Shown: in pieces, positions 41,307-64,000 of the stretch | How positions within the stretch are numbered: position 1 is the first letter of the stretch | How the letters are laid out: every line of letters starts with the position of its first letter | NCBI GenBank assembly: GCA_000722615.1 | Contig: JOKI01000016.1 | Location: forward strand, 1-64,000 | Direction of reading: 5' to 3' | Source of the DNA: Pseudorhizobium pelagicum | Lineage (GTDB): Bacteria; Pseudomonadota; Alphaproteobacteria; Rhizobiales; Rhizobiaceae | Length of the DNA: 64,000 bases | Notes under the pieces: generated by a model | The model's input: the letters and a program-made list of their open reading frames with translations, nothing else | Database searches by the model: none | Told to the model about the DNA's origin: nothing | Position numbers and translations under genes: made by a program

Positions 41307-44310
<3,004 letters not shown>

Positions 44311-61884: not shown

Positions 61885-64000
61885 TCAGGACCGCGGACCG
61901 TCTGCGAGGCTTTGCACCAGGAGTTCGAACGTCACACCCACGGGATTTTCACCTTTCTTGAGACGCCCCGTGTAGACCTCTCCGTCCACATCGACCACTG
62001 CGGCGTCAACAAGCGCACGGACACCGTGTGGTCCCGCCACGACGACACCATCTTGCATAACAACCTCGGTCGCGGTGCACCGAACCTGCCGGCCATCCTC
62101 AAAAACAGGCATGTAGATGCTTCCAAGGCCATGGATGCGGGCCTTTTCGATGCCGAATTCGACGCAGGTCTGTTCGACAGCCGTGCAGACATCCTCATCC
62201 GGTCGCAAACGCAGGTAAACGCCGTCTCCTCGACAGCCATCCCCTTGCGCCGAGAACAAGGTGAAGTTTGTCTCGATGTCCAGGACCGACTGCCAGATCG
62301 CAGATACGCTTCCGTGGCCACGAACCGTCACCGGCTCGACGACGATGCTGTCGAACGGAAGAACATGCCCCATCCGTGGCCGGCCCTCGCCGACGTCCCA
62401 AAGCCCGTGGCAATGGAGGAAGACAGCACCATCCCTTTCACCGAACGTTGCCGTTGCGGAGATGAATCGGGCACCGGCTTCCGGCGCCAGCGTGGCACTG
62501 TACCATGCGGCGTGTTCGTGGTCATGCGATAATGCCGGCAGGACGTAACGGAATGGTGCGCAGGTGCCGCCATCAAGGGTCACGACACCGGCGCGGCAGC
62601 CCGCCTCGGCGAAGATCCTGGCCACTCCCGCCATGACTGTTTCGCCCGGCTGCAACTGCCCGCCGACGGGCGTCAGTGGCGTCTGGACCACCTCGCGCCG
62701 AACCGGATGCCTTGGCCCCGGATGCGCCAGCGTGCCGAATCGCGCGGTTTCTTCGTTACCCTGCTGTCGTGCCAGATCCCCGCGTCGCTGCAGTTCCTCG
62801 CGGATCATCTTCTTGGTGATCTTTCCGTAGGCGGATTTCGGCAAAGCATCCCAGAACACGATGCGCTTGGGCAGCTTGTAGCGCGCCATCTTGCCGTCGA
62901 GAAAGGCGAGCAGCTCGGCTTCCGTCACCGCAAGCTTTGCGACGCAAACAGCGACCCCCACCTCGCCCCAAAGCGGATCTGGCATCCCCAGCACCGCCAC
63001 CTCCGTAATCCCCGGATGGCTGAGGATCTTTTCCTCGATCTCGCGCGGGTAGACATTGGACCCCCCCGAAATATACATGTCCGACGCGCGCCCAGTGATG
63101 TAGAGGAAGCCTTGCGCATCGACATGACCAAGGTCGCCGGTCCGGAACCAGCCATTGCGGAAGGCCTTTTGGTTGGCTTCGTCGTTCTCGTAATAGCCTG
63201 CAAAGACTGCCGGTCCGGTGCAGCAGATTTCGCCTGTCTGGTTTGCACCGACCTCCTCGCCCGCATCGTTCTGGATCGACACCTGCATGCCGGTGCGCTC
63301 GAATCCGCAAGTCCCGATTCTGGCATGATCGCCATCTTCGCACGTATGCAGTGCAGGCGGCAGGACGGTGATTGCACCCGTCACTTCACCGAGCCCAAAA
63401 TACTGCACCAGCACAGGCCCCAGGACCTGTAGCGCCCGTTTCTGGTCCTCGCGGTACATCGGGGCGCCCGCGTATATCACATAGCGCAGCGAGGCGTGAT
63501 CATGGGCATCCACCGACGGGTGCTCAACCAGCATCTTCAGGATTGTCGGCACCGTGAACATCGTGGAAACCCGCCACTTTTCCACAAGCGCCCAGGCAGC
63601 CTCGATATCGAATTTCTCGCTTGGCAGCAGCACGGTGGTCACGCCTCTGGCCACCTGCGTCAGTTGATGTACGCCCGCCCCATGAGACAGGGGCGCCACC
63701 ACGAGAGAGGCGTCATCGGAGCTGAGACCGGGCATCAGGTCGCACAGATGGTTGTTGACGACATAGGCCATCTGCCCGTGCGTCAGGACCGCCGCTTTTG
63801 GCCGGCCCGTGGTGCCCGATGTGAAAAAGAACCAGCACGGATCATCGCGGTCGACGGCGGCTTCAAGCGGTTGTGATCCGGCGTGGTCTTCCACGAGCTG
63901 TTCGTAGGATGCCCCGAAATCTGCCGCGCCGATCGCGATGACGAAGGCAATTTGCGGGTTTGTCCGGGTGACTGCGGCTGCATGGTCTGGAAAGGAAGCA
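61885..64000 (-). CDS. acyl-CoA ligase fused to a C-terminal PPC/DUF296-like double domain (5' end outside window)
   Basis: The visible 705 codons are open to the right edge. The first ~430 residues are the main part of an acyl-CoA synthetase: WFFFTSGTTGRPKAAVL, FRTGDLGHVDAQGFLYITGR and the C-terminal SAYGKITKKMIREEL. About 270 further residues follow in the same frame and look like two PPC (DUF296) units. The first contains GAVFLHCHGLWDVGEGRPRM and GHVLPFDSIVVEPV (HxH and GH metal-type positions), the second YLRLRPDEDVCTAVEQTCVE and a VDVDGEVYTGRL end. It converges on the leucine operon. The acid it activates is unknown. Confidence 0.82.
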   Translation of the reverse strand, partial: ASFPDHAAAVTRTNPQIAFVIAIGAADFGASYEQLVEDHAGSQPLEAAVDRDDPCWFFFTSGTTGRPKAAVLTHGQMAYVVNNHLCDLMPGLSSDDASLVVAPLSHGAGVHQLTQVARGVTTVLLPSEKFDIEAAWALVEKWRVSTMFTVPTILKMLVEHPSVDAHDHASLRYVIYAGAPMYREDQKRALQVLGPVLVQYFGLGEVTGAITVLPPALHTCEDGDHARIGTCGFERTGMQVSIQNDAGEEVGANQTGEICCTGPAVFAGYYENDEANQKAFRNGWFRTGDLGHVDAQGFLYITGRASDMYISGGSNVYPREIEEKILSHPGITEVAVLGMPDPLWGEVGVAVCVAKLAVTEAELLAFLDGKMARYKLPKRIVFWDALPKSAYGKITKKMIREELQRRGDLARQQGNEETARFGTLAHPGPRHPVRREVVQTPLTPVGGQLQPGETVMAGVARIFAEAGCRAGVVTLDGGTCAPFRYVLPALSHDHEHAAWYSATLAPEAGARFISATATFGERDGAVFLHCHGLWDVGEGRPRMGHVLPFDSIVVEPVTVRGHGSVSAIWQSVLDIETNFTLFSAQGDGCRGDGVYLRLRPDEDVCTAVEQTCVEFGIEKARIHGLGSIYMPVFEDGRQVRCTATEVVMQDGVVVAGPHGVRALVDAAVVDVDGEVYTGRLKKGENPVGVTFELLVQSLADGPRS

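Follow-up and report, generated by a model that had tools for sequence, protein, structure and literature searches.

Can a PPC domain, whose family bears the name of a DNA-binding protein, act as the metabolic partner of an enzyme? PPC/DUF296 proteins range from archaea to plants and are little studied. The question is raised by a gene at the end of the window analysed here, the stretch from position 1 to 64,000 of Pseudorhizobium pelagicum contig JOKI01000016.1 (assembly GCA_000722615.1), in which an acyl-CoA ligase and two PPC units share one open reading frame (ORF). A sequence-only reading of the window had described this fusion; the observation is confirmed, and its interpretation is partly supported.

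The fused ligase-PPC gene

Minus-strand positions 61885-63999 form a single frame with no internal stops. The window cuts the start of the gene; the full ORF, which starts with an ATG at position 64317 of the contig and stops at 61885, encodes 810 amino acids, of which the ligase takes up residues 1 to about 512 and the PPC part the last 278. The features are as follows.

61885..64000, minus strand: fused acyl-CoA ligase and two PPC units, from the ORF reading (first ~106 of 810 residues beyond the window)
62785..64000, minus strand: PRK07470-type acyl-CoA ligase part (AMP-binding and AMP-binding_C), from profile matches
63796..63822, minus strand: TSGTTGRPK, read in the sequence, which we take to be the ATP-binding loop of adenylate-forming enzymes
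62809..62841, minus strand: PKSAYGKITKK, read in the sequence, presumably the C-terminal lysine motif of the ligase
62722..62784, minus strand: linker between ligase and PPC, which in two sister species carries a stop and a new start
62251..62676, minus strand: PPC unit 1 (HxH...GH, D-x-E-T-N-F), from profile and alignment
62365..62415, minus strand: HCH-x13-H, proposed three-histidine metal site, the three His being invariant in 66/66 aligned sequences
61888..62223, minus strand: PPC unit 2 (GxGS, two invariant Glu; HxH lost), from profile and alignment

A Pfam scan of the fused protein returned AMP-binding, AMP-binding_C and PF03479 (PCC). The PF03479 profile, proposed earlier as a check of the PPC assignment, matches the part inside the window in two stretches (E 3.5e-10; 40.6 bits against a cut-off of 25) and the full-length protein with 39.9 bits, which bears out both the family and the count of two units; the HxH...GH pattern ascribed to the first unit is present as HCH...GH. 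When the units were searched singly in six frames, unit 2 scored above the cut-off (26.7 bits) and unit 1 just below it (22.0 bits). Both PF03479 matches of the genome lie inside the fused gene. The ligase belongs to NCBIfam NF005676 (PRK07470 acyl-CoA synthetase; cut-off 774), with 776.4 bits for the window part and 950.9 for the full length over model positions 20-539 of 544. It shares the profile, the ATP loop and the lysine motif with that family, from which it differs by the additional 278-residue PPC part behind the enzyme. Compared with other members of PF03479 (DUF296; AF0104, PH0802, bacterial stand-alone proteins, plant AHL), the PPC part consists of two complementary units instead of one complete unit, and is linked and fused to a ligase. 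No AT-hook family was found in the Pfam scans, and RGRP, the core of the AT-hook, is absent from all 810 residues.

A genus-wide search located the PPC part in 27/57 genomes. The close type accounts for 22 of these, the window and 21 others at 57-70% identity, and in 20 of the 22, the window included, ligase and PPC form one unbroken frame with a short linker that contains no stops and is of near-constant length. In the other two (G223 and G224) the ligase has a stop and the PPC starts in a different frame, the genes overlapping. The remaining five genomes are of a distant type with a gap between ligase and PPC of the size of a short-chain dehydrogenase/reductase (SDR) gene, and in one such locus (L067) an SDR gene fills it. 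Values of pN/pS from 36 pairs of nine fused genes are 0.079 for the ligase, 0.213 for the linker (19 codons) and 0.118 for the PPC part, which shows that the junction is under purifying selection. In a tree of 29 loci, both separate copies nest within the fused ones; at least two changes are needed, such as a single fusion followed by a re-split, and independent fusions are still conceivable.

Among the fetched loci, in which several may come from one genome in both the fused and the separate sets, fused frames are confined to the genus of the window (27 loci, 20 genomes). The ligase lies upstream as a separate gene in 101, repeats included, and ten lack a same-strand ligase in the 1.5 kb upstream. 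Separate neighbouring ligase and PPC genes, which the sequence-only reading had suggested looking for, thus occur outside the genus. Such relatives could be held to favour a sequencing or assembly fault in the window, and a stop between the parts had been named as its sign. The stop is the normal separate-gene state of the relatives, and the chance of a fault is negligible because 20 genomes have the frame intact, its linker stop-free and of near-constant length, and two split copies nest among the fused ones. Nor is the fusion a matter of chance, given its continuity in those 20 genomes and the selection at the junction. The fusion is genuine and joins two proteins that are otherwise encoded by separate, adjacent genes. 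A TAG reported as a break in L044 was rejected as such; it is the gene's own stop, and the next SDR gene follows in the same frame.

Linkage of the PPC pair to the ligase and its operon

Genomes sampled at the levels of class, family and genus were each searched once with the PPC part and once with the ligase at a limit preset to E 1e-150; the genomes are related to one another and the co-occurrence counts are not independent. In the class sample (142 genomes), the two-unit PPC and the ligase each occur in eight genomes, which are identical and come from eight different families. The two units are in tandem in three of them, the window included, and are encoded by adjacent PPC-N and PPC-C genes in five. 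In seven further PF03479-positive genomes of the class the match is to single PPCs or, in G385, only partial; none of them has this ligase. The family sample (199 genomes) contains 38 genomes with the PPC and 39 with the ligase, 38 being shared; in the genus sample (57 genomes) both proteins are found in the same 27. The sole mismatch of the family sample, G162, has the ligase without a PPC. This ligase (58% identical; L205:2459-6461) sits between an amidase-like gene, by our own reading, and a gene of the glyoxalase/dioxygenase superfamily, an arrangement that possibly reflects a different pathway for this ligase family.

Across the phylum (398 genomes) some match was obtained in 37, a number that takes in single PPCs as well as genomes already sampled above. 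The ligase lies within 1.5 kb of the two-unit locus in 23/25 fetched cases, one more pair (G605) being left out. For L190 a wider stretch (L208) places it about 2 kb downstream. Around L173, the tandem PPC gene of G605 (L207:6515-7327), no ligase turned up in some 6.5 kb to each side. Besides this ligase-less gene, G605 has a split PPC pair on another contig. The PPC pair and this ligase are nearly inseparable, and their arrangement takes three states: ligase, PPC-N and PPC-C as three neighbouring genes (the five class genomes, and L189 and L191 of the phylum sample); ligase and tandem PPC as two genes, often with an SDR gene between them (most loci read); and the one-gene state of the genus of the window. 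Paracoccus denitrificans PD1222 (L035) is among the strains whose genes are separate. On an Agrobacterium plasmid, a split PPC pair (L038:9894-10854) stands directly beside a cassette that already holds a tandem PPC gene.

The surroundings were read in 34 loci, selected for containing the PPC, with flanks of up to 9 kb. A PRK07470-like ligase is present in 33/34, an IclR regulator in 32/34, a TRAP transporter of one of two kinds in 31/34, an SDR in 30/34 and a PRK07516-type thiolase in 24/34. L039 has the PPC without other members of the cassette, and L071 begins at a contig end. In the genome of the window the order is SDR, TRAP permease, TRAP substrate-binding protein (SBP), IclR, thiolase and ligase-PPC.

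Two attempts to read the substrate from these neighbours were dropped. Assignment of the SDR as a meso-2,3-butanediol dehydrogenase was rejected because profiles of this family resemble one another too closely; that profile is the best match of the P. denitrificans SDR, but the score of 244.8 stays below the cut-off of 270. Homology of the SBP to 4oan was also set aside, the neighbouring ligase being of another kind in five stretches, and the acetolactate clue stays weak. No literature on 4OAN was found in a search that left subscription journals mostly outside. In the five stretches, L147-L151, the SBP is 81-87% identical to 4oan and the transporter adjoins a different ligase (PRK08162 in L151, the only one scanned). 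This context suggests that ligases of two kinds may activate one and the same imported acid; three of the five genomes (G581, G603 and G640) have the PPC and a PRK07470-type ligase elsewhere in the genome. In G208, a paralogous cassette (L206:5188-8705) comprises IclR, thiolase, a 57% identical ligase and TRAP genes, and an alpha/beta-hydrolase occupies the usual place of the PPC.

Complementary PPC units and their proposed function

An alignment of 66 PPC proteins, 20 of them fused, shows invariant H103, H105, H119, Y74, S75, W108, D148, T151, G200, S201, E219 and E266 (PPC numbering). E150 is invariant in 34 diverse PPCs and present in 65/66 of the larger set. The 34 sequences reach down to 30% identity, and their three His, two Glu, Tyr-Ser and D-x-E-T motif are still invariant. 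The two units are complementary. The HxH..GH motif is found in 64/64 N units and in 0/64 C units, and GxG[SA] in 5/64 N units and 61/64 C units (two of the 66 proteins were dropped, as their unit boundary was not placed by the script). Single PPCs have both half-sites: HxH..GH is present in 5/5, together with a GxGA loop (three) or AxGA (two). In a profile search against solved sequences, PH0802 (2dt4) pairs its start with unit 2 and its HxH section with unit 1. A parsimonious reading takes the motifs as halves of one composite site, of which each unit has lost what the other contributes, and the pattern suggests a single metal site shared by units 1 and 2.

PPC proteins typically form trimers, and the solved structures found for PF03479 relatives in the PDB are labelled either hypothetical or DNA-binding. 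In a low-confidence predicted model, built from a two-row alignment, unit 1 adopts the PPC fold of PF03479 and matches solved PPC proteins; next to these, only acetolactate decarboxylases exceed the background. The identification of the PPC as an alpha-acetolactate decarboxylase (ALDC; PF03306) by sequence was dropped, as the profile similarity is not significant: hhalign gave a probability of 0.1%, and comparison of the tandem and single PPCs with five ALDC homologues was unsupportive. PF03306 has no match in the genome of the window at E 0.001, and the His motif of ALDC lies in the C-terminal half, that of the PPC protein in the first unit. A pattern scan of viral_contigs, done once, matched five stretches, with no relative among them. 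No literature joining DUF296/PF03479 with acyl-CoA synthetase, acyl-CoA or acetolactate decarboxylase was found, subscription journals being mostly outside the search.

A parallel is offered by PTD012/C11orf54 (DUF1907). This protein is reported to be 3-dehydro-L-gulonate decarboxylase, a once-missing enzyme, with a Zn bound by three His and an ALDC-like structure (PMC12435205). In the same article its function is supported by a domain fusion with a dehydrogenase together with the ALDC-like fold. PTD012 belongs to another family, and the fusion partner here is a CoA ligase.

Taken with the linkage, the motifs point to a two-step module for which we consider the chances about even: the ligase would activate an imported short acid, and the two-unit PPC would be a metal-dependent lyase that makes or uses the compound handled by the ligase, the fusion coupling the two steps. 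The TRAP transporter of the operon would import the short organic acid, and oxidation by the SDR would yield a 3-oxo acid. Unit 1 would supply a three-histidine metal site (HxH-x13-H) and unit 2 the GxGS loop and two glutamates of a lyase that resembles acetolactate decarboxylase and PTD012 in fold and chemistry. Its substrate would be a 2-hydroxy-3-oxo acid or a beta-keto acid of that kind, and it could work either ahead of the ligase or behind it. The ligase half would convert a short organic acid to its CoA ester, the SDRs and the thiolase would carry out the neighbouring oxidation and cleavage, and the fusion would keep the two active sites together. The more specific and general proposal, that two-unit PPCs are metal-dependent lyases of 2-hydroxy-3-oxo (beta-keto) acids whose single active site is made up by a His unit together with a Glu/GxGS unit, serve one CoA-ligase subfamily across the phylum, and are fused to it in this genus as a two-step catalyst, is tentative.

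The sequence-only reading had proposed that the PPC part senses or holds the acyl-CoA product, or is a hydrolase-like partner. A non-catalytic domain regulating the ligase through binding of the acid or of its CoA ester would suit the tight genetic linkage, as expected of a regulatory subunit, and the names of the PDB relatives point the same way. Catalysis is favoured over sensing because of the invariant His, Glu, Asp, Tyr and Ser residues, whose persistence down to 30% identity is active-site-like, and the cassette already has its IclR gene in nearly all loci; we regard a sensor as unlikely, though its chance is appreciable. An enzyme-like partner is upheld as one option. That the PPC part hydrolyses or edits the CoA ester made by the ligase, as an esterase or thioesterase, is rather doubtful. 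The alpha/beta-hydrolase in the post-ligase place of G208 fits an enzymatic role there and leaves this rival alive, and PTD012 hydrolyses p-nitrophenyl acetate; such a cassette, however, was seen only once, and the verified metabolic activity of PTD012 is reported to be decarboxylation (PMC12435205). DNA binding, as in the name 'PPC domain-containing DNA-binding protein', is very improbable. Annotation names alone speak for it, and the lack of an AT-hook in the Pfam scans and of an RGRP core, the fusion to a metabolic enzyme and the retained His cluster speak against it. The PPC part has more the look of an enzyme that depends on a metal than of the DNA-binding protein in its family name.

The fusion is a new combination of known parts; the nearly inseparable pair and the case for the PPC as an enzyme are of greater interest. 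The family gains a metabolic partner, a fusion series of three genes, two and one, split active-site motifs and a fold neighbour of known chemistry, and the question of what PPC proteins do becomes addressable in one operon of a laboratory strain. If the lyase proposal is true, a PPC-family protein would have a clear metabolic role, and single PPC proteins, which keep both half-sites, would be suggested to be enzymes too.

Neighbouring genes in the window

On the plus strand, an operon at about 50.9-61.8 kb encodes E1 alpha, E1 beta, E2 and E3 of a BCKDH, an acyl-CoA dehydrogenase, MCC beta, MCC alpha, MaoC and CitE, the names being a reading of the ORFs and not of a profile scan. Its end lies 96 bases from that of the ligase-PPC gene, and this proximity is what favours placing the PPC in a branched-chain or itaconate-type pathway with MCC, MaoC and CitE, as had been suggested. 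The tie does not hold: the two groups are convergent, and a single one of the 34 loci, the window itself, has MCC and CitE close to the cassette. Since the operon is on the opposite strand and the neighbourhood is not conserved, the leucine or itaconate link was rejected as improbable, and the leucine-type operon is not part of the cassette.

Elsewhere in the window (41307-44108, minus strand), a 933-residue frame joins ThiC (398/420 profile positions) to a DAO-type FAD oxidoreductase that is ThiO-like. The end of ThiC looks, by our own reading, as if it were read in another frame, so a frameshift and not a true fusion may have produced the join.
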